From contig NZ_VDFU01000006.1 of the NCBI RefSeq assembly GCF_006152115.1, positions 124,001-188,000 on the forward strand: a DNA stretch of 64,000 nt, given 5' to 3'. A model generated the notes under the pieces. It made no database searches. It saw only the letters and a program-made list of their open reading frames with translations, and had not been told where the DNA came from. This stretch comes from Rubellimicrobium rubrum (GTDB taxonomy: Bacteria; Pseudomonadota; Alphaproteobacteria; Rhodobacterales; Rhodobacteraceae). Positions 49,490 through 64,000 of the stretch are shown piece by piece (the stretch's first letter is position 1; the number at the start of each line of letters is the position of its first letter). The position numbers were made by a program, and so were the translations under genes.

Positions 49490-50500
49490 TCAGTCTCCGT
49501 CGGCCGCATTGAAGCCGGCCGCCACCCCGAGCGCGGGCCCAAGCTCTTCGTTGACGAGCGCGCTGATCCGATCCACGGAGGTCTTCAGCGCCTCGACCCG
49601 GAAGCGGCCTTCGGGGGTTGCCACGCCTGCGAAGATCGGATCGCCCAGCCCCGCTGCCAACCGCTCCGCCTGCTCGAAGGCGGCTTCAAGGTCCTGGGCG
49701 ACGCTGCCGGACGGGGCCAGCCGGGCTGAAAGATCGGACAAGGCGGCCAGGGACAACTGAACGTGGCGCAAGGACCGGCCCGAGCGTCGAGCCTCGGCTC
49801 GGGCGGGCTTCGGGTCGTCGAAGCTGCCCATGGGCCGAGCGAGTCGCGAGTCCGAGGTGAACTCTAGTCCTGCGCCAAGCGCATCGTAGAATTCCTGAAT
49901 CACGTCCGCTGCCGAGCGATAGGCCGCATTCTCGCCAGGCGACTGGAGCAGGGTCGCGTAATCGCCTGTCCAGTCGGCATATATGGCGGCAGCATTGGCG
50001 GCTATGTCACGGGCGATCGCTTGGACCAAGGCGCAGCGGTAAGACTCGGGTGCAAGCGTCGCGAACTCCTCGTCATAAAGCAGGAACTCGAGCGGGTAGA
50101 AGCCGCGGGCCGCGATCGAGACCTCGGCATAGCCCTTTTGCGAGACGACGACAGGGTCCTCGGCGGCGATCAGGCTGCGAAGGGCAGAGGGGGTGTCACC
50201 GCGCGGGTCGGGCCAGAAGGCCAAGGCATAGGCGCGATCGTCGGTCTCGGACGGGCCGAAGCGCAGGTGACTGACACCGATCCATGTATCGAACGCTTCG
50301 TTGAAGGCTGCACGTAGATCATCTGACTCGGGGTGGCAGTCGCTCTGGGCGGCCGCATCGAGCTTCGCCGCAGCCTCGTCGAGGGCGGCGTAACGTGGCA
50401 TGACATGGTTCTGCACCACGTCAGTGATCACCTCCGCCTGATCCTGGGCCAAGACAGGGGTGGAGAGGGTTACGCAAAGCGCAACAAGGGCAGGGCGCAT
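49490..50500 (-). CDS. Imelysin family protein (M75), degenerate motif
   Basis: A 336-residue exported helical-bundle protein. The signal peptide (1-18) ends VLAQD. The region equivalent to the GxHxxE motif reads GFYPLEFLLYDEE, so the histidine is replaced by tyrosine. The gene overlaps the stop of the upstream di-heme gene (TAATG). It lies one base from the DUF1513 gene. Imelysins are thought to bind iron or heme in the periplasm; with the His lost, this paralogue may play a different part from its neighbour. Confidence 0.87.
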   Translation of the reverse strand: MRPALVALCVTLSTPVLAQDQAEVITDVVQNHVMPRYAALDEAAAKLDAAAQSDCHPESDDLRAAFNEAFDTWIGVSHLRFGPSETDDRAYALAFWPDPRGDTPSALRSLIAAEDPVVVSQKGYAEVSIAARGFYPLEFLLYDEEFATLAPESYRCALVQAIARDIAANAAAIYADWTGDYATLLQSPGENAAYRSAADVIQEFYDALGAGLEFTSDSRLARPMGSFDDPKPARAEARRSGRSLRHVQLSLAALSDLSARLAPSGSVAQDLEAAFEQAERLAAGLGDPIFAGVATPEGRFRVEALKTSVDRISALVNEELGPALGVAAGFNAADGD

Positions 50501-52047
50501 TACAAGCTCTCCAGAAAGCGGATCAGGGCCTCGCGGTCGGCGCGCGGCATCGTCACGACCCTGTCACGCGGTGCCTGCGCCTCACCGCCATGCCACAGGA
50601 TGGCCTCCAAGAGGCTGCGAGCCCGACCGTCGTGCAGAAAGGTCGCCCGCCCACTGACCTGCTCGGTCAGGCCAACTCCCCAAAGCGGAGCGGTGCGCCA
50701 CTCGGTGCCGCTGGCTTGCCCTTCGGGGCGATGATCCGCCAGACCGTCGCCCATGTCGTGGAGAAGCATGTCGGTATACGGCCAGATCAGCTGAAAGCTT
50801 TGCTCGGGCCGATTCTCCAGGCGGTGGGTAACGAACGAGGGCTGATGGCAAGCGGGACAGCCGGTCTCGTGGAAGACCTGCTTGCCGCGCAACACCTCAG
50901 GGTCGCTTTCGTCGCGTCGTGCCGGGACGCCCAGGTTTCGGGCGTAGAAAGCCACGAGATCAAGGGACTCGTCATCCACCTCCAACCCGCCACGGGACGC
51001 GTCCCCGCCATCGGGGGCAGAGCGGCAAGCGAGTTGTACCTCGGTACATTCACCGAAAGCGGCCGCGTTCAAGGAGGTGGAGAGCCCCATGTCGCCGGCA
51101 AAGGCGGCCGCAGACTGTTCACGGATGGTGGCAGTTCCCGCCTTGTGCCCGAACCGTCCCAACGTGATCTCGCCGAACTCTGGCGACAGGATCATGTTGG
51201 GCCGGCCCGAGATGCCATCCTTGTCCGCATCATCCTCGTCGGCATGGGCCAGGATGTCCGAAGCGGGGATCGCCTCCAGAAGCCCGAGGCCGATCATCTG
51301 CGGCGCGATGCGCGGGCTCAGCATGGCATCCGGATGAAGCGGACCATAAGCCAGGTCCTGCAATTCATAGGTCGGCCGCCGAAGAAAGGCGGACTGCCCG
51401 TCCGAGAGCCGAACCTCGACGTCCTCGTAGGTGATCGCCAGCTTCGCTTCTGGGACCTGTCCTGCGACACCTCTTGTCTGGATCTGACTGCCATAGGTCG
51501 GCTCGGGCCAGGAGGCGAGGTACTCCCGGATCGCTCCCGCGCCCTCCTCGTCGGTGCTCGGGATCGAAACACGCAGGATCAGCGCCCCGGAGTCGTCGCC
51601 CAACCCGTCCGGGGGGTGACCCCGCCCGTCTTTGACATGGCAGCCTTGGCAGGACCGGGCGTTGAACAAAGGGCCGAGCCCATCCGAAGCCTGCGTCGAA
51701 GATGGGGACGACACCCAGGTCTTCCGGAACAAACCATTCCCGACCTTGAAATCCAACTCACCTTCGAAGCTCATGTTTCCCGAGGGCTGGGAGAATGCGT
51801 CGGCCGTCCCTCTGGCTCGCACGGTGGCCGCTCCTGCAGGCATTCCTTCATAGCGGTCCGACGTGGAAAAATCGCTTGGCGGCACCGTCACCGCAGCCAC
51901 GCGCCCGACCTCTTCCAATGTGCGCGGAATGGTACGGAGGTGCGGGTCCCCGACCGACTGGGCAAGAGGTGCCGCCAGGCCTGCCGTGCCGGCCAGAGCG
52001 AGCATGACGAAAAGCGGACGCGCTCCACTTCTGGCACTGGCAGGCAT
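50500..52047 (-). CDS. Di-heme oxidoreductase (DUF1111, thiol oxidoreductase-like)
   Basis: A 515-residue periplasmic cytochrome. The signal peptide covers residues about 1-27. Two heme c sites are seen, CQGCH in the first third and CPACH in the last third. A MauG/peroxidase-like layout is likely. The start at 52047 overlaps the imelysin stop (TGATG), and its stop overlaps the second imelysin. It may set the redox state of iron bound by the imelysins. Heme insertion would depend on the Ccm system found earlier in the window. Confidence 0.88.
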   Translation of the reverse strand: MPASARSGARPLFVMLALAGTAGLAAPLAQSVGDPHLRTIPRTLEEVGRVAAVTVPPSDFSTSDRYEGMPAGAATVRARGTADAFSQPSGNMSFEGELDFKVGNGLFRKTWVSSPSSTQASDGLGPLFNARSCQGCHVKDGRGHPPDGLGDDSGALILRVSIPSTDEEGAGAIREYLASWPEPTYGSQIQTRGVAGQVPEAKLAITYEDVEVRLSDGQSAFLRRPTYELQDLAYGPLHPDAMLSPRIAPQMIGLGLLEAIPASDILAHADEDDADKDGISGRPNMILSPEFGEITLGRFGHKAGTATIREQSAAAFAGDMGLSTSLNAAAFGECTEVQLACRSAPDGGDASRGGLEVDDESLDLVAFYARNLGVPARRDESDPEVLRGKQVFHETGCPACHQPSFVTHRLENRPEQSFQLIWPYTDMLLHDMGDGLADHRPEGQASGTEWRTAPLWGVGLTEQVSGRATFLHDGRARSLLEAILWHGGEAQAPRDRVVTMPRADREALIRFLESL

Positions 52048-53306
52048 CACTGGAACACAGCATCCGGCGCGTCAAGGCTGTCGGAGCCTTCTATGCTGAC
52101 GCCATTCAGGCCCAAAGCCGCCACCACGCGTTCGATGCTGCGGGTCTGATCGATCAGGCCATCGACCCCGGCCATGACCAGATCCTCGCCTTGGGCGTTG
52201 CCGCGCTCGAGCATCATGTCATACGCGAAGCCTTGCTCCGCCGCCGTCCGAATTGCGCCCAGCGCCGCCATGGTCGTGTCAAGCTTGGCCTGCATCTCGG
52301 CATCGAGGGCCGGATCCTTGGCCGACACGAGGTCGGACAGCGAAGGCCCGGACACCAGCGTGCCGTCCGTCCGGACGTACTCTCCCAGATAGACGTTCCT
52401 CACGCCCATGCCGTCATAGTAGTGGCTGTTATGCGTGTTGTCCGAAAAGCAATCATGCTCCTCCTCGGGATCGTTCAGCATCAAGCCAAGGCGCATGCGC
52501 TCTCCGGCCTGCTCTCCGTAAGACAGGCTGCCCATGCCGGTCAGGATCGCCGTCAGGCCGGCTGTTTCGTCGGCCAACACTGCCTCGCGCGCCGCGCCAC
52601 CTTCGGCCCACTGAGCCGCCATCCATTCCAGGTCGTCCACCAGCAGCCCGGTTGCCGCCAGCAGGTAGGCGGCACGGCGGTCGCAGTTGCCGCCCGTGCA
52701 CGAGTCACCCACGGCAAAGTCGGTCCAGGGACGGTTGCCAGCGCCAGGGCCGTGACCATTCAGATCCTGACCCCAGAGCAGAAACTCGATGGCGTGATAA
52801 CCCGTCGCCACATTGGCCTCGACCCCTGCGGCTTCGTGCAGGACATCGGCCAGAAGGTCGGTGCTGATCTCCGAGGCGTCCACCGTTTGCCCCGACAGGG
52901 AGAAGGACGGATGACCGATCACGTTGACGACCGCCGCCTCATTCTCGTCGGTCGGACCGCCATAGGAAGCATCGACATAGTCGATCAGTCCTTCGTCCAG
53001 AGGCCAGGAGTTCACCCGACCTTCCCAGTCATCCACGATGGGGTTCCCAAAGCGGAATACCTCGGTCTGCTGGTAAGGCACCCGCGCGCTGATCCAAGCG
53101 GCCCGTGCAGCCTCCAGCTTGTCCTGAGAGGGATCCGTTACCAGCTCGTGTATCGCTGCCTTAAGGGCCAGCGCCGTGTGATGGCTGTCCCCATATGCAG
53201 CCTCGGCTATGTTGGCATAGGTGTCGAGGACATCCCGGGCCTCCTGAGCGGTGGCGGGCAGCGCGCCCAAAGCAAGAGCCGAAGCAGCTAAGGTCAAGCG
53301 ATTCAT
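52047..53306 (-). CDS. Imelysin family protein (M75, IrpA-like) with intact motif
   Basis: A 419-residue exported protein. The signal peptide ends ATAQE. The GxHxxE motif is intact in GYHAIEFLLWGQD. A second block with THNSHYYDGMGVRNVYLG is typical of IrpA-type imelysins, larger than the paralogue at 49490. ATG at 53306 with AGGG upstream is preferred over the in-frame ATG at 53318. It leads a four-gene operon, and two dyads lie upstream. Confidence 0.9.
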   Translation of the reverse strand: MNRLTLAASALALGALPATAQEARDVLDTYANIAEAAYGDSHHTALALKAAIHELVTDPSQDKLEAARAAWISARVPYQQTEVFRFGNPIVDDWEGRVNSWPLDEGLIDYVDASYGGPTDENEAAVVNVIGHPSFSLSGQTVDASEISTDLLADVLHEAAGVEANVATGYHAIEFLLWGQDLNGHGPGAGNRPWTDFAVGDSCTGGNCDRRAAYLLAATGLLVDDLEWMAAQWAEGGAAREAVLADETAGLTAILTGMGSLSYGEQAGERMRLGLMLNDPEEEHDCFSDNTHNSHYYDGMGVRNVYLGEYVRTDGTLVSGPSLSDLVSAKDPALDAEMQAKLDTTMAALGAIRTAAEQGFAYDMMLERGNAQGEDLVMAGVDGLIDQTRSIERVVAALGLNGVSIEGSDSLDAPDAVFQ

Positions 53307-53355
53307 GAGGTCCCTCATCCCTCCCCGTCATCGGGGTAACCGAACCCGTCCCTGG

Positions 53356-55589: not shown

Positions 55590-55771
55590 AAAGCAGCCAA
55601 AATGGGGAAACCCGGGAACGGACTTGCGGTCAAGCCGTTTCGTGATGGGGCGAATGAGAGGCCTGCTGCTGCGCAGTCGTGCAGGGCGGGTAAGTGGATG
55701 GCAGGCACCGTGACCTTGGTTGGACGTGGTGTGCCGTCCGTTTGACGTGGCGATTTGATCGAGGTGGTGCC

Positions 55772-56428
55772 TTGTCCTTCAGCCCTATTCTGACGCGGGT
55801 TCTGGTCTATGACCCGAACCCCTTCCTCGCGAACTCGATCTGCAACGGGCTGGAGCTTTGCGGCCCGTTCACGGCCAAGTCCTGCAGTGGCGACGTTTCC
55901 AACCTGACGGGGGTGTGCTCGACCTTCCGCCCCAACATCATCGTTCTCGATCCGGCCCGAGTTCCCCTGAGCCCTGAGCAACTGACGAGCCAGGTGACGC
56001 GCGACCTGCCGAACTGCGAGATCCTGGGCTATGTGGCCGATGGCGATCGAACCGAGGCCGAGCGCTGTCTGGCAGGTGGCTTCGTCGGCGCCGTCTCCCA
56101 GGGACGCGGCCTCGAGGCACTGATCGAAGCGCTCGAGGCGGCCAAACTGGGGGGCATCTACGTGGACCAGTGCTTTGCCCGGTTTGCTGAACGTCGCGCT
56201 CTGGAGCTGGTCAAAGGTGATCCTGACGGTTCCGGCCGGCTGAGCGAGCGTGAACGCTACGTGATGGAACATGTAGCGCGAGGGTTCAGCAATAAGGAGA
56301 TCGCCGGCAAGCTGGGGCTCAGCCCCAAGACGATCGAGACTTACCGGTCACGTGCAGCCGGTAAATTGGGGCTGCGGCGCAAGACCGATATCGTCCAGTA
56401 TGCCCTGCGCAATAACTGGCTTGGCTGA
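55772..56428 (+). CDS. LuxR-type regulator with degenerate receiver domain (copy 1)
   Basis: A 218-residue protein. The N-terminal half follows a response-regulator fold: VLVYDPNP with D14, and IIVLDPARV with D60 at the phosphorylation site. The conserved lysine is replaced by Gln in VSQGR. The C-terminal GerE helix-turn-helix is strong (LSERERYVMEHVARGFSNKEIAGKLGLS, then TIETYRSRAAGKLGLRRKTDIVQYALRN). TTG at 55772 follows GAGGTGG. A close paralogue lies just downstream; both precede the alginate-type operon. Confidence 0.85.
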   Translation: MSFSPILTRVLVYDPNPFLANSICNGLELCGPFTAKSCSGDVSNLTGVCSTFRPNIIVLDPARVPLSPEQLTSQVTRDLPNCEILGYVADGDRTEAERCLAGGFVGAVSQGRGLEALIEALEAAKLGGIYVDQCFARFAERRALELVKGDPDGSGRLSERERYVMEHVARGFSNKEIAGKLGLSPKTIETYRSRAAGKLGLRRKTDIVQYALRNNWLG

Positions 56429-56583
56429 GCCACCGGACAGTTTGTGAGAACCAGCCCTACAGAGCCTGCGGATTTCCCCGACTGGAGTTCATGCTGGCCG
56501 GAACATAGCCCAGTCTTGGGGCGCCCCGGTGTTTTCGGGGAGGTCGGCGCCGCGACGGGGACGGGCGGCGGAGGAGCGGATTG

Positions 56584-57246
56584 ATGACGACCGCGATGAA
56601 GAAACAAGAGTTGAGGCATGTTGCCGTAGCGGTCCTGGACGCCAATCCCATCCTGGGCGAGGCGATGGTTCAGCATTTCAGTTCGAGCAAGTACTTCGGA
56701 CGCGATGATGTCGTCAGCCTGACTTGGGACAGGGCGCGCGATCTGGCGCATATTCGTCCATCCATCCTTGTCTTGGATCCGTCCCAGTCGCCAAGTGGCC
56801 TTGAAGATCTGGTCTCCGAACTGAGGTCGAGCGTGCCCGGCCTCCAACTGGTGGCGTATTCCTCGGCGCCGTCCGTGGATCTGGCCCGGACCTGCGTGAA
56901 CCTCGGATTCCGCGCGTTCGTTCCGAAAAGCGCTGAAAGTACCCAGTTGACCGGTGCGCTGACAGTCGTGGCCAATGGGGGAATGTATGTGGACCGGCAG
57001 TTCGTCGAGTGCCTGCTGCCGTCCTCGGCTCCGGCCGAGCCGCCGACGATGACCCAGCTGAGTCAACGGGAGGAAGCGATCCTCCGGCGCATCTCGCTCG
57101 GTCTCAGCCACAAGCAAATCGCGACCGAACTGGGTCTGAGCCATAAGACGGTGGATACCTATCGTGCACGGGGCATGCGCAAGCTTGGCCTTGCCGACAG
57201 GGGCGAACTGGTTCGCTATGCGCTGAAGCAGGGCTGGCTCGAGTAG
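56584..57246 (+). CDS. LuxR-type response regulator-like protein (copy 2)
   Basis: A 220-residue paralogue of the preceding regulator, ending alike (RYALKQGWLE versus QYALRNNWLG). The receiver is better preserved: D19, D65 in ILVLDPSQS and K115 in FVPKSAES. The GerE helix-turn-helix is intact (LSQREEAILRRISLGLSHKQIA). GGAGGAG precedes ATG 56584. No histidine kinase adjoins. The terminator at 57280 follows, so it is probably transcribed apart from algD. Confidence 0.87.
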   Translation: MTTAMKKQELRHVAVAVLDANPILGEAMVQHFSSSKYFGRDDVVSLTWDRARDLAHIRPSILVLDPSQSPSGLEDLVSELRSSVPGLQLVAYSSAPSVDLARTCVNLGFRAFVPKSAESTQLTGALTVVANGGMYVDRQFVECLLPSSAPAEPPTMTQLSQREEAILRRISLGLSHKQIATELGLSHKTVDTYRARGMRKLGLADRGELVRYALKQGWLE

Positions 57247-57545: not shown

Positions 57546-58862
57546 ATGGCGAGAATTAGTGTGTTCGGGATCGGGTATGTCGGCGTGGTCTCGGCCGCAT
57601 GCCTGGCTCGCGATGGTCACGAGGTGGTCGCTGTCGATCTCGACCGCGAGAAGGTCCGGGCGATCAACGAGGGGCGTTCGCCCATCGTGGAGAAAGGACT
57701 GGACGAACTGCTCGCGGGCGTCGTGTCCGAGGGGCGGCTGCGTGCGACCACGGATGCGGCCGAAGCCATCGCTGCGACGGACGCGTCCTTTGTATGCGTC
57801 GGCACCCCAAGCGCACCCGACGGCTCGGTCGGCCTCGTCTTCGTGAAGGGCGTCTGCGAGTCCATCGGCAAGGCTGTGGCCGCCAAGGGCAGCTACCATT
57901 CGGTGATCATCCGCTCGACGATCGTGCCGGGGACGATGGTGAACACCTGCATTCCGGTCCTCGAAGCAGCATCCGGCCTCAAGGCAGGCGAAGGCTTCGG
58001 CGTCGGCTACTTCCCCGAGTTCCTCCGCGAGAGCACTGCGATCGAGGATTACTACGATCCGGGCCTGATCGTGTACGGCGCCCTGGATGATCGTACCGCC
58101 GAGGTTCTCAGGTCGCTGAACGATCATCTGCCCTGCGAGTCGCACCTCGTGGACCTCTCGACAGCCGAGATGGTCAAATACACGTCGAACTCCTGGCGCG
58201 CCGTGAAGATCACCTTCGCGAACGAGATCGGCAACATCGCCAAGGCCTGCGGGCTCGATGGGCAACTCGTGATGCGGATGCTCTGCAGCGACCACAAGGT
58301 TGCGATGTCGCCCGCTTTCCTTCGCCCCGGGTTCGCGTTCGGCGGCTCCTGTCTTCCTAAGGACGTCCGCGCCTTGCGCGCCTTGGCCGCTGACAAGGAC
58401 ACTCCCGCACCGCTTCTGGGCGCCGTGCTGGAAGCGAACGAGATGCAGATCTCTCGCGCCGAGCAGATGATTGAAGCTTCGGGCATGAAGAGCGTTGGCC
58501 TTGTCGGCATCAGCTTCAAGCCGGGCACGGACGACCTGCGGGAGAGCCCACTTGCCGACCTGGCCGCCCGCCTGATCGACAACGGCAAGGATGTCAGGGT
58601 CTATGACCCTTACGTGTCGGTGGCGTTCCAGAACCCGGCCGCTGCGAACCGCGGCAACGATGTGGTTCCTGATCTCGACATGCGGATGGCGGACAGCATC
58701 GACGACCTGATCGCGTCCACGGAGATCCTCATCGTCGGCAACTCCTACGAGGAAGCCCGAGAGCCGCTTTTGAGCGCCGTGGGCACGCGGCCGATCGTGG
58801 ACCTGACCCGGCTCGACCGGACCGTCCGGTCGAACGGCTCCTACCAAGGGATCTGCTGGTAA
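57546..58862 (+). CDS. algD: GDP-mannose 6-dehydrogenase
   Basis: Oxidises GDP-mannose twice to GDP-mannuronate, the committed step of alginate-type polymer synthesis. 438 residues, nearly the length of the Pseudomonas enzyme. The Rossmann motif is GIGYVGVVSAACLARDGHEV, and the catalytic cysteine is C269 in GGSCLPKD, against C268 in Pseudomonas AlgD. The AGGGAA ribosome-binding site is good. The gene leads algD-alg8-alg44-algA-algG-like; a ~235-base leader after the upstream terminator should hold the promoter. Confidence 0.95.
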   Translation: MARISVFGIGYVGVVSAACLARDGHEVVAVDLDREKVRAINEGRSPIVEKGLDELLAGVVSEGRLRATTDAAEAIAATDASFVCVGTPSAPDGSVGLVFVKGVCESIGKAVAAKGSYHSVIIRSTIVPGTMVNTCIPVLEAASGLKAGEGFGVGYFPEFLRESTAIEDYYDPGLIVYGALDDRTAEVLRSLNDHLPCESHLVDLSTAEMVKYTSNSWRAVKITFANEIGNIAKACGLDGQLVMRMLCSDHKVAMSPAFLRPGFAFGGSCLPKDVRALRALAADKDTPAPLLGAVLEANEMQISRAEQMIEASGMKSVGLVGISFKPGTDDLRESPLADLAARLIDNGKDVRVYDPYVSVAFQNPAAANRGNDVVPDLDMRMADSIDDLIASTEILIVGNSYEEAREPLLSAVGTRPIVDLTRLDRTVRSNGSYQGICW

Positions 58863-58866
58863 CCGC

Positions 58867-60330
58867 ATGCTGGGGCACGCCGCCTACCTCCTGTCCATGA
58901 TCGCGCTGGCCGCTGCCGTCGGGCGGCGGACTGCGGACGAACTGGGCACCCTCCTCATCGTGGTGGGGGTGCTTGGCCTGTGGCGGTACAGCTGGGCCGC
59001 GATCAACTTCGCACGAGCGGCGATCTATCTGCGCTGGGCCTACCCGCGACAGCGGGCCGAGGCCGAGCGCGCCTACCGTGCACGGCCAATCCCGGCGCAT
59101 GCCTTCTTCCTGGTGACGACCTACAAGATCGAGCCCGGCATCACGACGCGTGTCTACCGCTCGATCTTCGAGGCAGCCGCAGTCTCGAAAGGGGGGGCTA
59201 CCATCGTCGCGTCGGTAGTGGATGGTGCCGACCTGCGCATCATTCGCGAGCTGTTCGCTCGGATGCAGGGCAGTGCGTCCCATGTGAAGCTGGTGATCGA
59301 CCAGATCCCCGGGACGGGCAAGCGCGACGCGATCGCCCGTTCCCTGCGGATCATCGCGCGCGAGGCACCGTCCCCTCGGGACGTCCTCATCTTTGTGGAC
59401 GGCGACAGCTGCGTCCCTTTGGACATCGTGGACCGGTCTGCGCCCTTCTTCACCGATCCTCGCGTGGGCGCCCTCACGACAGACGAGACGGTCGAGATCC
59501 TCGACGCCCCTCTGTTTCGGGATTGGTTCGACCTTCGCTTCATGCAGCGGCAGGTCATGATGTGCTCCATGGCACTGAGCGGCCGCGTGCTCACGCTGAC
59601 TGGGCGCATGTCGGTCGTGCGCGCCGATCTTGCAACCCAGCCGAGCTTCATCAGCCACGTCCAGCACGACTTCATCGATCACTGGCGGCTCGGCCGCGTC
59701 AACTTCCTGACCGGCGACGACAAGTCGACCTGGTTCTGGCTTCTCAGCCGCGGCTTCCACATGACCTACCTTCCGGACGTGAAGTCGGTTTCCATGGAAA
59801 CCCAGCCTCTGCCGGGCTTCTTCGAGAGTGCATTCGCGCTCATGAAGCGCTGGTTCGGGAACATGATGCGGACCAATGGCCGTGCGGTGGCGCTCGGACC
59901 GCAGCGGATCGGGCTTTTCACCTGGTGGTCGGTGCTTGACCAGCGCGTGTCGGTCTGGACGACGCTGACCGGCCCGTGTGCTGTGCTCCTGACCACCATC
60001 CTTGTCGATCCTGTGGCACTGCCGGCCTACATCGCCTGGGTCATGTTCACGCGTTACGTGTTCTGTGCGGCCTTGTCGCTGTTTCGGCGTCCCGGCTTCC
60101 CCATCATCTATGTCCCGCTGCTGTACTTCAGCCAGGTGGCAGGAGCACTGGTGAAGAGCTCGGTGATGTTCCGGCTCGACCAGCAGAAGTGGACCCGGCA
60201 GGGATCGGGCAGTGGACGTGCGCCCAGAACCTTGGGTCAGCGGGTCCGCGCTGCGTCCTCCAACTACGTGCAACTGCTTGCCTATGGCTGGTTCGGCCTG
60301 GGCGTCCTCCTCCTTTCCGGAATCCTCTGA
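58867..60330 (+). CDS. alg8: Mannuronan synthase glycosyltransferase Alg8
   Basis: A 487-residue membrane GT2 enzyme that polymerises GDP-mannuronate into the chain. Hydrophobic helices at the N-terminus and three or more at the C-terminus flank a cytosolic catalytic domain. The latter has LIFVDGDSCVPLD for nucleotide-sugar and metal binding, TGDDKSTWFW and a KRWFGNMMRTN acceptor helix. It starts four bases after algD. Alg8 needs Alg44, encoded next. Confidence 0.92.
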   Translation: MLGHAAYLLSMIALAAAVGRRTADELGTLLIVVGVLGLWRYSWAAINFARAAIYLRWAYPRQRAEAERAYRARPIPAHAFFLVTTYKIEPGITTRVYRSIFEAAAVSKGGATIVASVVDGADLRIIRELFARMQGSASHVKLVIDQIPGTGKRDAIARSLRIIAREAPSPRDVLIFVDGDSCVPLDIVDRSAPFFTDPRVGALTTDETVEILDAPLFRDWFDLRFMQRQVMMCSMALSGRVLTLTGRMSVVRADLATQPSFISHVQHDFIDHWRLGRVNFLTGDDKSTWFWLLSRGFHMTYLPDVKSVSMETQPLPGFFESAFALMKRWFGNMMRTNGRAVALGPQRIGLFTWWSVLDQRVSVWTTLTGPCAVLLTTILVDPVALPAYIAWVMFTRYVFCAALSLFRRPGFPIIYVPLLYFSQVAGALVKSSVMFRLDQQKWTRQGSGSGRAPRTLGQRVRAASSNYVQLLAYGWFGLGVLLLSGIL

Positions 60331-60348
60331 GACCATGGGTGCCAAGAC

Positions 60349-61479
60349 ATGACGATGCGACCCGATCCACCCCTTCGCCAAGACACCCTCGGGACCTCCT
60401 CTCTTCCCGCCGGCCTCGGCGGCAATGAACATCCGCTTATCGACATCCCGTTCACGGTCTATGTTGACGGCCGCCAGTACACCGGTGCGGGCATCTCGCT
60501 GGTCGAGGCGCATGTCGTGGGGCTGGCCGATCCGGCTCTCGAGAACCAGAAGCGGCTAGTCAGGATCGCGTTCGACTTCGGCGGTTTTGCCGTATCGCTG
60601 CACCCCGAGGTCTGGATCGTCCGCGACTCTCCGCAAAGCCTCGTGCTCCGGTTCATCGACCCGACCGGCGAGCATCTTCCGCAGCTCCGCCATATACTGA
60701 ACGACTACATCTCGGGCGACATCACCTCGCTGGGTACGGTGATCCGAGCGGGGACGCTCACTTCGCCCAAGGCGGCGGGGCGGCCGACGGTTCGACGGAG
60801 CCCCTGGGCGGGTCTCAAGACCGTTCTCGGGACCATTCTCGCGCTCGTGCTGATGCTCGTGCTGCTGACAGTCGCGGCGACCCTGGTCGGCCGCCGAGTC
60901 CTCCTGACCGACCTGCCTGCGCCCGCGCAGATCGCGATCGCTGGCGAAACCCTGCGAGCAGTGGCGGACGGCCAGATCACCTATCTCGATCCGGAGGCGC
61001 CTCAGGGCGAGGTCGCCTATGCCGTCGCTTCCACCAGCGGCGAAACCCTGTCGATCGCGATGCCCTGCGACTGTCGGTCCGTGACGGTCGGCATCGCCGA
61101 AGGAAGCACGGTCCTGGCCGGGGAGCCTGTCCTGCGCCTGACGCAGGGAGAGCCGGTCACCATCGTGGAAGCGAACGTGCCGCGTCAGGATCTCTTCGCG
61201 CTGCAGCAGGCCGGCGGGGCGGAGATCCGTCTCAGTGACGGACGGACCGTATTCGGCCAGCTCGACAGCCGGACGTCGGCCGTCGATCTCGCTCCCGGTG
61301 AGGATCTGGTTCCTGTCCGTCTCATGCCGGAGGCACCTCTGTCGACCGATCTGGCAGGCCAGGCCGTGGCCCTTCGCATCCGTCGCGACGCGGGCAACCT
61401 TCTCGCCCCGGTTGCCGAAGGGTGGGCTGATGCCCGTGCCTTCCTGACCTCCCTCTGGGCTGGCGCTCGCCAGCCTTGA
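60349..61479 (+). CDS. alg44: Alg44-like polysaccharide co-polymerase
   Basis: A 376-residue protein with the Alg44 layout: an N-terminal cytosolic domain of about 150 residues, one transmembrane helix (about 163-183, VLGTILALVLMLVLLTVAATLV) and a periplasmic membrane-fusion-like domain. In Pseudomonas the N-terminal PilZ domain binds c-di-GMP and is essential. Here the RxxxR and (D/N)xSxxG motifs are not evident; the matching stretch reads GAGISLVEAHVVG. It lies between alg8 and algA. The call rests on layout and position more than on identity. Confidence 0.8.
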   Translation: MTMRPDPPLRQDTLGTSSLPAGLGGNEHPLIDIPFTVYVDGRQYTGAGISLVEAHVVGLADPALENQKRLVRIAFDFGGFAVSLHPEVWIVRDSPQSLVLRFIDPTGEHLPQLRHILNDYISGDITSLGTVIRAGTLTSPKAAGRPTVRRSPWAGLKTVLGTILALVLMLVLLTVAATLVGRRVLLTDLPAPAQIAIAGETLRAVADGQITYLDPEAPQGEVAYAVASTSGETLSIAMPCDCRSVTVGIAEGSTVLAGEPVLRLTQGEPVTIVEANVPRQDLFALQQAGGAEIRLSDGRTVFGQLDSRTSAVDLAPGEDLVPVRLMPEAPLSTDLAGQAVALRIRRDAGNLLAPVAEGWADARAFLTSLWAGARQP

Positions 61480-61520
61480 CCGCCCGACCGCCCCTGGAAG
61501 CCCGCAAGGAGACAGGCGAC

Positions 61521-62963
61521 ATGAAGTCCATCCATCCCGTGATCCTGTCCGGAGGCATGGGTTCCCGCCTCTGGCCGCTCTCGCGCGTGAAGCAGCCGAA
61601 GCAGTTCCAGCCGATCGACGGCGCGAACGGTCCGAGCTTTCTTCAGGCTACGGCGCTGCGCCATCGCGGCGACATGTTCCACGAGCCGACCATCGTCGCC
61701 AACGCTGCGCAAGTGGAGCTCATCTCGGAGCAGATGCTCGAGATCGGGTGCCATGCCCGCATCATCGGTGAGCCGGTCGGTCGGAACACGGGGCCGGCGG
61801 TCCTGGCGGCGGCCTTGCGTCTGCTGGAGACCGACCCCGAGGCGATCATGCTGATCCTGCCTTCGGACCATGTCGTGAACGGCGATCTGAACGGTGTCAT
61901 CGGGCGGGCTGGGGCGGCTGCGCGGGATGGTCACATCGTTCTGATCGGGATCGTGCCGCGCTATCCCGAGACAGGGTTCGGCTACATCACCGATGGAGGG
62001 GAACTCGAAGGGCGGCCCGGTCTTCACCGCGTCAAAGCGTTTGTCGAGAAGCCGGAGCTCGAGGTTGCGACCCGGCTTCTTTCCGAGGGTGGTTCGTACT
62101 GGGCTGCGGGGATCTCCGTAGTCCGCGCCGACCTGATCGTGAGTGAGTTCGGGCGTCTGGAACCCGCGACATTAGCCGCCGTGCGTCAGTCGCTGGACCA
62201 AGGGCGCGAGGTCGGGGGTGCGATCCTCCTTGCGGAGCTTCCCTTCTCCACGGCGCTCGACGAGCCGACCGAGCGCGCGATTTTCGAGCGTTCGCCGCAT
62301 GTGTCTTTGGCCCCGGCCAGCGTTGCATGGTCCGATGTCGGCGCCTGGACGGCGGTGCACAGCATCGGCGAAAAGAACGCTGCGGGCAACGTGCTCAGCT
62401 CCGAGGTGCTGGCCATCAACACGCGGAACTCCCTGGTGCGCGGCTGCGGCAAGCTGATCGCGGTGGTGGGCATGGATGACGTCATCGTGGTCGACACGCC
62501 GGATGCGCTGCTCGTGACCAATCACTCCAACGCCCAGTTGGTGAAGAACGCGGTCAACCAGTTGCTCAAGACGGGCCGTAGGGAAGTCGAGACGCATCTT
62601 CGCACGGGGCTGAGCCAAACCGACCTGCAGCCCGCTACGACTGGCGTGGCACGCATCGTCATCGAGTCAGGCAACCTTGGCACTGTTACCGGAACGGGGC
62701 AGGCCGGGTCCGTTGTAACCGTGGCCACCGGAACAGCCGTGCTCAAGATCGCGGGCGAGCCCGTGGGTGCCAAGGCGGGGGAGATCTTCTTCGTCCGGCC
62801 GGGCGAGACCGCCACGATCGCGAACGGCGGGACCGAGTCCCTGATACTTGTTTCAGTGGATATCGAGCCCTCGGCGGCAAAGCAGCAGCCCGCTCTGGAC
62901 GGGCTGCCCACGGGCGAGCTTGTCGATGCGTTGCAAGTCGGTCGGAGGCGCTTCGTTGCGTAA
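61521..62963 (+). CDS. algA: Mannose-1-phosphate guanylyltransferase (AlgA/ManC type) with degenerate isomerase domain
   Basis: A 480-residue protein. The pyrophosphorylase domain is intact: LSGGMGSRLWPLSR near the start, GRNTGPAVLAA, ILPSDHV and FVEKPE. It makes GDP-mannose for AlgD. The C-terminal cupin, in AlgA the phosphomannose isomerase, keeps a GTAVLKI-type strand but lacks the histidine-rich metal-binding block. The isomerase step is therefore probably done elsewhere. AAGGAG supports ATG 61521; an in-frame TTG at 61476 overlaps alg44. Confidence 0.9.
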   Translation: MKSIHPVILSGGMGSRLWPLSRVKQPKQFQPIDGANGPSFLQATALRHRGDMFHEPTIVANAAQVELISEQMLEIGCHARIIGEPVGRNTGPAVLAAALRLLETDPEAIMLILPSDHVVNGDLNGVIGRAGAAARDGHIVLIGIVPRYPETGFGYITDGGELEGRPGLHRVKAFVEKPELEVATRLLSEGGSYWAAGISVVRADLIVSEFGRLEPATLAAVRQSLDQGREVGGAILLAELPFSTALDEPTERAIFERSPHVSLAPASVAWSDVGAWTAVHSIGEKNAAGNVLSSEVLAINTRNSLVRGCGKLIAVVGMDDVIVVDTPDALLVTNHSNAQLVKNAVNQLLKTGRREVETHLRTGLSQTDLQPATTGVARIVIESGNLGTVTGTGQAGSVVTVATGTAVLKIAGEPVGAKAGEIFFVRPGETATIANGGTESLILVSVDIEPSAAKQQPALDGLPTGELVDALQVGRRRFVA

Positions 62964-64000
62964 CTCCTTGCCTCTGCTCGCGATGGCGCTCCCTGCCTGC
63001 CTTTGGGCCGGCACGGCCGCCATGGCGCAGCCTTCACCTGACGATGCGGCAGGTTGGCTGGCCGAGCGGAATCGTGCCCTCAGTCAGTTCGGCGCAGTCC
63101 TGCCACCACCGACGGCGGAAGAGACCGGGGACGACCGGGGCTTGGCACTGGTCGCAGACTCGGCGCCGCAGGTCGCGGCTTCGGACGTGCGCCTTGCCCT
63201 GACGCAGATGGCCCTGGCTGCCGGGTCAGCCGGACAGGCGGAGATCGCCGCCGCCCAACCGACCCGTGGTCCGGGCGCCATCTATCTTCGCGCCGGCGCG
63301 GCCACTCTGACCGAGCTTTTCGAGGCCACCCGCGGCACCGATCTGGAGTCGGTGCTGACGCGAGACGGGCAGCGATTCGTGGCTTCCCGGCCCATAGTCG
63401 TGGTCCAAGGGGCAACCCTACAGCTTGAACCCGGCGATGTGCTGACACTGGAAGCGAACGACGGGGCGTTCCTGCTATCCTTCGGCCATGTCGAGATGGC
63501 CGGAGCCACCGTGCGGGCCGATCCGGCGCCCTACTGGACCGAGGAAAGCTTCCGACCCTTCGTGGCGATCCTGGGGACGGGCACGCTGGACGCGTCATGG
63601 AGCGTGTTCGCCGGCCTGGGCTCGGACGTTGCCCCGTTTGCGAGCGGACTCTCGCTGGGGTCGGGCAGTCTTTTTGCGGCAACACGCAGTTCGGGGGTCC
63701 GCGACAGCCGCTTCATCGACACGCATGGCCTGTCGATCATTGGCAGCGACGGAGCCCGGGTCGTCGGCAACCGGTTCGACGGCGCCGAAGGCATAGCGAT
63801 CTCCGTGGACGACAGCGACCGGGTCGAGATCCGGGACAACGTCATCGTCGAGCCTGAAGGCCGGTTTGCCATTCGCGTGGACGGTCCTGCGACAGATGTC
63901 GAGGCGACAAACAACATCATGGTCGGGGGTCATCACGACGCCCTTCGTGTCGCGGCGGGCGCTTCGGCCGTGGACCTTTACGGAAACGTCATCGCCGATT
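62956..64000 (+). CDS. algG: AlgG-like mannuronan C5-epimerase (3' end beyond window)
   Basis: 348 residues of an exported right-handed beta-helix protein are visible, and the frame is open at the edge. TTG at 62956 inside the end of algA gives MRNSLPLLAMALPACLWAG and a signal peptide ending AMAQ, with GGAGG seven bases upstream; ATG 62983 would cut that peptide. After a Pro-rich linker come RPFVAILGTGTLDASWS, then beta-helix turns (GLSIIGSDGARVVGNRF, VEIRDNVIVEP). AlgG turns mannuronate into guluronate in the polymer. The catalytic DPHD-type region lies further on and cannot be checked. Confidence 0.78.
   Translation, partial: MRNSLPLLAMALPACLWAGTAAMAQPSPDDAAGWLAERNRALSQFGAVLPPPTAEETGDDRGLALVADSAPQVAASDVRLALTQMALAAGSAGQAEIAAAQPTRGPGAIYLRAGAATLTELFEATRGTDLESVLTRDGQRFVASRPIVVVQGATLQLEPGDVLTLEANDGAFLLSFGHVEMAGATVRADPAPYWTEESFRPFVAILGTGTLDASWSVFAGLGSDVAPFASGLSLGSGSLFAATRSSGVRDSRFIDTHGLSIIGSDGARVVGNRFDGAEGIAISVDDSDRVEIRDNVIVEPEGRFAIRVDGPATDVEATNNIMVGGHHDALRVAAGASAVDLYGNVIAD

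Follow-up and report, generated by a model that had tools for sequence, protein, structure and literature searches.

A variant alginate-family gene cluster in Rubellimicrobium rubrum and related Alphaproteobacteria, with no detectable AlgE

Background

Here, we describe a 12-gene cluster that begins near the end of a 64,000-nucleotide stretch of the Rubellimicrobium rubrum genome (the window, G000:C69:124001-188000), continues beyond it, and encodes homologues of 11 of the 12 canonical alginate genes, algE being the exception. The cluster is no oddity: it belongs to a widespread lineage of Rhodobacterales and Rhizobiales, and many marine and soil Alphaproteobacteria have it. It probably specifies a variant synthase-dependent exopolysaccharide system of the alginate family, with unepimerized mannuronan as the predicted product, no gating of Alg44 by cyclic di-GMP (c-di-GMP), and an exit from the cell other than through AlgE. 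This reading draws on the loss, throughout the lineage, of residues that canonical alginate proteins retain, and on the failure to detect AlgE in nearly all genomes searched.

In Pseudomonas and Azotobacter, the alginate genes are described in the order algD-8-44-K-E-G-X-L-I-J-F-A (PMC3815931). Like that operon, the cluster has an Asp-His-Ser triad in AlgJ and, in one of its two forms, in AlgX, along with an Alg44 that combines a PilZ domain with a MexA-like part. Unlike it, the R. rubrum genes run D-8-44-A-G-I-J-Sel1-X-F-K-L, include an extra Sel1 protein, encode a longer AlgK, and show altered sites in Alg44, AlgA, AlgG and AlgL. The "atypical" alginate operons of Bundalovic-Torma et al. (2020; PMC7112194) are portrayed there as rearranged, as having lost algKE or modification genes, and as belonging to environmental deep-sea bacteria; unlike operons so portrayed, the present cluster retains algK and the modification genes and lacks algE. 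The relevant passages of that paper mention no alginate cluster from Rhodobacterales or Rhizobiales and do not discuss the active sites of alginate enzymes, and its supplements may list members of the clade described here. No paper on the alphaproteobacterial cluster was found among the top matches listed in the open PMC literature.

The R. rubrum operon

A reading of the window from its sequence only had proposed five genes arranged head to tail with short gaps or overlaps, in an order unlike that of Pseudomonas and Azotobacter. All five open reading frames (ORFs) are real and lie on the plus strand, their order recurs in related genomes, and the departure from the known gene order stands. 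The same reading had suggested looking to the right for the remaining alg genes. Extension to the end of the contig revealed algI, algJ, algX, algF, algK and algL there, and algE was absent, so that the whole operon reads algD-alg8-alg44-algA-algG-algI-algJ-(Sel1 protein)-algX-algF-algK-algL. Its genes are listed below in window coordinates or, beyond the window, in L002 coordinates (window position minus 57499).

57546..58862, plus strand: algD, GDP-mannose 6-dehydrogenase (1mfz match)
58867..60330, plus strand: alg8, family-2 glycosyltransferase, uronan polymerase (Pfam Glyco_tranf_2_3, alignment and tree; gap of 4 after algD)
60349..61479, plus strand: alg44, PilZ-fold domain, one long helix (likely transmembrane) and MexA-like periplasmic domain (gap of 18 after alg8)
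61521..62963, plus strand: algA, mannose-1-phosphate guanylyltransferase with a degenerate type II phosphomannose-isomerase domain (ATG start; TIGR01479)
62956..64000, then outside the window to C69:188467 (L002:6968), plus strand: algG homologue, right-handed beta-helix (family profile)
L002:6968-8383: algI (Pfam MBOAT)
L002:8395-9504: algJ (Pfam ALGX)
L002:9504-10343: Sel1-like protein (no Pfam match; profile and fold searches)
L002:10340-11653: algX (Pfam ALGX)
L002:11626-12288: algF (Pfam AlgF, 31.8 bits, below the cut-off of 34.4)
L002:12306-15080: algK, 924 aa (Pfam Sel1 repeats)
L002:15077-16123, ending at C69:197622: algL (Pfam Alginate_lyase)

The gene algA has an alternative TTG start at 61476 that would overlap alg44, and the TTG start of algG at 62956 overlaps algA, with an in-frame ATG at 62983. 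Downstream of algG, neighboring genes overlap or lie at most 20 bases apart. AlgD matches the GDP-mannose dehydrogenase 1mfz at E 2e-123 over residues 3-438 with 416 bits; the runner-up, a UDP-glucose dehydrogenase, scores 249. The tract is not a chance arrangement, given this nearly full-length match, the match of AlgA to the model of bifunctional guanylyltransferase/phosphomannose isomerases (GMP/PMI), and the recurrence of the order in relatives.

Distribution, samples and the Alg8 tree

Of 394 genomes of the family searched, 60 gave a match: 31 encode an Alg8 at 53% identity or more, and in 29 there are only more distant relatives (40% identity or less). In a sample of 398 genomes drawn from the phylum, 24 gave an Alg8 profile match at E 1e-30 or better. 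A relative is encoded in 308 of 319 pattern stretches from the named genome collection, and the best 80 of these 308 belong to Rhodobacterales and Rhizobiales, going by record titles. Matches on plasmid records (n = 14) came from Rhizobium (9), Loktanella (2), Salipiger (1), Jannaschia (1) and Tateyamaria (1); two annotated plasmid regions name a nucleotide sugar dehydrogenase, a glycosyltransferase, a hypothetical protein, alginate O-acetyltransferase AlgF and an alginate lyase family protein. The gene set and these relatives agree with the earlier description of an alginate-type operon, divergent in Alg44 and AlgA, in a Rhodobacterales-like genome.

Ten of the 125 annotated loci (L045-L053 and L096) fall outside the clade and were left out, leaving 115, of which 82 have a long form of the cluster, 25 a short form, and 8 are cut or unassigned. 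Removal of 13 duplicates gave 102 distinct clade loci (73 long, 22 short, 7 cut or unassigned), some of them incomplete. Residue counts for Alg44, AlgG, AlgA and AlgL exclude the duplicates; counts for AlgX, AlgJ, LuxR homologues, lipoboxes and neighbors include them. Gene order is conserved across Rhodobacterales and Rhizobiales. The commonest order, D-8-44-A-G-I-J-Sel1-X-F-K, occurs in 41 loci, and 11 others differ from it only in that the position of AlgJ scored as AlgX. D-8-44-A-G-Sel1-X-K-L is found in 25 loci and the full order through to L in 10; many long loci stop before algL because the flank taken was 10 kb. As canonical controls, we used four operons (L207, L208, L214 and L216) from one family outside the class, which we take to be pseudomonads judging by their gene order and content. 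These have a near-canonical order, the canonical gene set, and an AlgE match between algK and algG, and they keep every motif tested.

In the Alg8 tree, the 102 clade rows group together with support 100. This tree was built by a quick method with a midpoint root, carries long-branch warnings, has support of 87-90 at forks deeper than the clade, and leaves out the cellulose and hyaluronan synthases (BcsA, HasA). Within that frame, the clade lies near the canonical alginate Alg8, with two other alphaproteobacterial rows (L096, L211) in between, in keeping with the alginate-type Alg8 that the sequence-only reading had assumed. These two, a Rhizobium etli 8C-3 plasmid cluster (L096) and an alphaproteobacterial cluster (L211), are the closest Alg8 relatives of the clade, and both form long branches. 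Unlike the clade, they retain the DPHD motif in AlgG and the PilZ motif pair in Alg44; since the four canonical operons retain both as well, the two losses are probably derived features of the clade. In AlgA, the isomerase HxHR motif is already gone from L096, as it is from nearly all of the clade.

The loci L045-L053, from the same family, encode Alg8-like proteins that are more distant (40% identity or less), and in several of these loci the neighboring genes resemble algD and algA. L046 and L053 additionally have algI/J/X/F-like genes, a gene set that suggests another acetylated polymer system.

Altered sites in AlgG, Alg44, AlgA and AlgL

The algG-like gene had been read as encoding an epimerase, and its product does not bear this out. 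A family profile matched the AlgG structures 4ozz and 4nk6 (E 3e-36 to 7e-36); a single AlgG protein used as query did not find AlgG structures. The epimerase motif DPHD is present in 0/96 clade proteins and in 4/4 controls, and the columns that we take to be D317, H319 and R345 carry the canonical residue in 0/96, 1/96 and 3/96 (controls, 4/4). Catalytic mutations in AlgG are reported to leave the alginate yield unchanged, whereas loss of AlgG, AlgX or AlgK does change it (PMC3815931). An AlgG retained without its epimerase site is thus understandable as a scaffold, given that these catalytic mutants keep the yield and that, in the same account, loss of AlgG stops alginate production. A second type of alginate-like operon outside the class (L209 and L215, probably Gammaproteobacteria) has an AlgG homologue that likewise lacks DPHD.

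RTX proteins with a beta-helix-like N-terminus (e.g., L148:4183-6960 and L115:5265-7403) lie beside 22 loci, 21 of them not short-form and one short. As replacement epimerases of the extracellular Azotobacter type, these neighbors were rejected, as none of the 24 ORFs in the group carries a D(P/S)H(D/E) motif. The R. rubrum genome gave 92 matches to one RTX query, all confined to the part of the query that bears the repeats (from residue 405); replacement epimerases of this kind are not supported.

For Alg44, a profile search gave weak matches to Alg44 PilZ structures (E 0.005-0.011). An AlphaFold model (mean pLDDT 82, pTM 0.49) superposes on 4rt1 with a TMt of 0.80 and a root-mean-square deviation of 2.1, and, with TMt values of 0.74-0.81, matches chains of 4rt1, 4xrn and 4rt0 across 101-107 columns; the remainder resembles MexA-like adaptors, with low TM-scores. 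The c-di-GMP motif pair (RxxxR followed by D/NxSxxG) was found in 0/101 clade proteins, in 10/11 wider comparators and in 4/4 controls. In the aligned columns, the two arginines occur in 3/101 and 2/101 clade proteins and the aspartate in 0/101 (controls, 4/4), and R...R...P by itself occurs in 12/101. The serine of D/NxSxxG is present in 100/101; its glycine is present in 15/101 in one alignment and in 90/101 in another, the two disagreeing. A PilZ (PF07238) search found no match in the R. rubrum genome and matched in 5 of 14 control genomes. These residues suggest that Alg44 is not gated by c-di-GMP in the known way.

AlgA scores 318 bits against the bifunctional GMP/PMI model TIGR01479, under the curated cut-off of 373, and matches solved guanylyltransferases solely across its first 350 residues. 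This guanylyltransferase half is conserved. The isomerase motif HxH[RK] remains in 2/96 clade proteins, both from Cohaesibacter (controls, 4/4), and in the isomerase columns single histidines occur in 4/96, 8/96 and 1/96 proteins and the glutamate in 0/96 (controls, 4/4). Elsewhere in the R. rubrum genome (G000:C24) there is another GMP/PMI gene whose isomerase motif, SLQSHHHRSEHW, is intact, and the supply of mannose-6-phosphate therefore need not fail; in L206, the motif lies in one open frame with the guanylyltransferase start. Two long-form copies, L068 (genome G346) and L072 (G183), have no recognized algD or algA, and the short-form copies in those genomes, L069 and L066, have both, which suggests that the copies share a precursor supply.

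AlgL matches the Pseudomonas AlgL structures. Of its PL5 active-site residues (K66, H202, R249 and Y256), H202, which the canonical controls keep, is replaced by Leu in 37/37 proteins and K66 by Arg in 36/37. Y259 is replaced by His in 35/37, and yet W205 and N201 are kept in 37/37, Y256 in 36/37, and the R249-Y256 spacing in 36/37. In P. aeruginosa, the H202A variant is reported to have no measurable activity and wild-type behavior in vivo, and R249A, R249E and Y256F to be inactive and harmful (PMC8829089). Given how H202A behaves in vivo, the clade AlgL is better regarded as altered than as dead.

Long and short forms

The short form (25 loci) lacks algI, algJ and algF together. In the long form, 64/82 loci show all three; the others include cut loci and loci in which the algJ gene scored as algX. 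The R. rubrum locus has the acetylation set AlgI/AlgJ/AlgF/AlgX. The Asp-His-Ser triad of AlgX is kept in 77/78 long-form proteins, the remaining one being gapped at the serine, and in 0/25 of the short form, where the aspartate is retained and the histidine and serine are lost. The AlgJ triad is kept in 67/68. In Pseudomonas, loss of AlgI, AlgJ or AlgF is described as leaving secretion intact and loss of AlgX as compromising it (PMC9734138), and the short-form pattern, in which AlgX stays and algI, algJ and algF are gone, fits this need for AlgX.

In the Alg8 tree, 21 short rows and L163 (truncated, assigned to neither form) make one group with support 100. Martelella limonii L166, a short form whose AlgX triad reads D-L-R, falls into a different group (support 97), and because it stands apart from the other short rows the short form appears to have arisen at least twice, although the long branch of L166 calls for caution. 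Among loci with at least 1.5 kb of upstream sequence, 65/73 long ones and 0/24 short ones have LuxR homologues no more than 2.5 kb upstream of algD, and the long form may be controlled by such regulators. In the short form, a Polysacc_lyase-like gene lies near the start of algD in 21/25 loci, on the opposite strand in 20 of these 21 (loci, e.g., L095:12285-13283 and L066:906-1862); a Pfam check of two of the encoded proteins gave PF14099.

Export proteins

A search for AlgE with PF13372 found none in the R. rubrum genome and none in 24 of 25 cluster genomes searched; as a positive control, the same search found AlgE within the operon in 4/4 canonical genomes, each time with an E value of 8e-76 or better. 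AlgK has the weakest of the gene links, 31-43 bits through Sel1 repeats. Both AlgK and the small Sel1 protein match many Sel1 proteins, AlgK structures not first, so the name AlgK rests on the repeats and the operon context; the Sel1 nature of the protein before algX comes from profile and fold searches, as Pfam gives nothing. AlgK has 924 aa here, against open frames of about 460-480 aa in the canonical controls, and a lipobox-like sequence occurs in 5/101 AlgK proteins, by a pattern unchecked on canonical AlgK. The Pseudomonas AlgK is described as an outer-membrane lipoprotein (PMC9734138).

Clustering of flanking ORFs with BLAST, by which an outer-membrane protein recurring beside the cluster was sought, gave no recognizable barrel among the 14 largest groups listed, barrel prediction not being part of the analysis. 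One flanking group, at first taken for type I secretion, seemed to combine assorted ABC proteins and was set aside without a Pfam scan.

Interpretation

In the mechanism that we favor, the guanylyltransferase half of AlgA and AlgD would make GDP-mannuronate, and Alg8 with Alg44 would polymerize it across the inner membrane. Passage of the chain through the periplasm would fall to AlgG, AlgX, AlgK and the extra Sel1 protein, mostly as a scaffold; in the long form only, AlgI, AlgJ, AlgF and AlgX would O-acetylate the polymer. AlgL, with its altered active site, would be a changed or inactive lyase. The predicted product is mannuronan without guluronate. Alg44 would be unswitched by c-di-GMP through the known residues, with LuxR-type regulators as possible controllers of the long form, and the chain would leave through an outer-membrane protein other than AlgE. 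What the sequences show directly is which genes are present, their order and conservation, the lost residues and the lack of a detectable AlgE; the product, its control and the exit are inferred. The earlier claim that the gene set suffices for a mannuronate polymer is plausible on these grounds; a mixed mannuronate/guluronate (M/G), c-di-GMP-gated and AlgE-exported alginate is not supported, given the altered AlgG, Alg44 and AlgL and the absence of AlgE. A more far-reaching version, that the alginate machine became a scaffold-driven secretion system in a large alphaproteobacterial lineage, making an unepimerized or different uronan with a c-di-GMP-free Alg44, a rebuilt AlgL and a new outer-membrane route in place of AlgE, is put forward tentatively, as less likely than not.

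Several observations weigh against the reading of an unepimerized, AlgE-independent mannuronan system. One cluster genome (G279) does have PF13372 matches, none of them on the contig that carries its cluster; the same search found no match in the genome of the outgroup L211, so the absence of AlgE is not unique to the clade; and an AlgE too diverged for PF13372 detection may be present. The lost activities are read from missing residues, an indirect sign. By analogy with the P. aeruginosa H202A variant (PMC8829089), loss of H202 need not abolish AlgL function, and the concerted changes at its substrate contacts (K66R, H202L, Y259H) could mean a different polymer. Finally, Salipiger mucosus carries a long-form cluster (L116), and its exopolysaccharide is reported to consist of glucose, mannose, galactose and fucose, uronic acid not being among the components listed (PMC2953402). 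Its genome is described as holding many other exopolysaccharide genes (PMC4148975), and its cluster may therefore not have been expressed.

Among the alternatives, recruitment of the machine for a different beta-linked uronan, with AlgG and AlgL refitted rather than dead, fares best, although we consider it unlikely. The new AlgL site is uniform ((N/G)NLRAW, SRY, YQLH) and keeps N201, W205 and Y256, which does not look like random decay, and the Polysacc_lyase-like gene beside algD in most short forms points the same way. Set against this are an AlgD nearest to GDP-mannose dehydrogenase, the conserved guanylyltransferase half of AlgA, and an Alg8 that adjoins the alginate Alg8 in the tree. Still less probable is an ordinary alginate operon of the kind seen by the sequence-only reading, just diverged and reordered and making M/G alginate under c-di-GMP control: 11 of the 12 canonical genes are present and AlgD and Alg8 are clear relatives, but the clade lacks DPHD in every AlgG and the PilZ motif pair in every Alg44, has replaced H202 in every AlgL, and in 24 of the 25 genomes has no AlgE, all of which the controls keep. 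That several catalytic motifs are gone might suggest a decaying, non-functional remnant, a notion rendered barely credible by the long open frames, by the conserved order and invariant residues across two orders, and by an AlgX triad whose retention and loss follow the presence and absence of algI.

These clusters offer a natural experiment that can separate the scaffold roles of alginate proteins from their enzymatic ones: AlgX persists though its triad is gone in 25/25 loci without algI, algJ and algF, in at least two independent changes on the Alg8 tree, and AlgG persists though DPHD is gone throughout. They also pose two directly testable questions, namely by which route a uronan would cross the outer membrane when AlgE is missing and what turns its synthesis on or off if not c-di-GMP at Alg44, and producers of unepimerized mannuronan would be of interest to polymer users and for marine biofilm ecology.

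Genes flanking the operon

Two paralogous regulator genes lie upstream of the R. rubrum operon.

55694..56428, plus strand: LuxR/GerE-type regulator (Pfam GerE, 1e-17)
56581..57246, plus strand: second, paralogous LuxR/GerE-type regulator (Pfam GerE, 3.9e-16)

Farther upstream, the minus strand of the window carries an imelysin / di-haem oxidoreductase / imelysin gene set (49490-53318). To the right of the operon, near the end of the contig, GH1-like and GH43 glycosidase genes are found (L003:694-5682).

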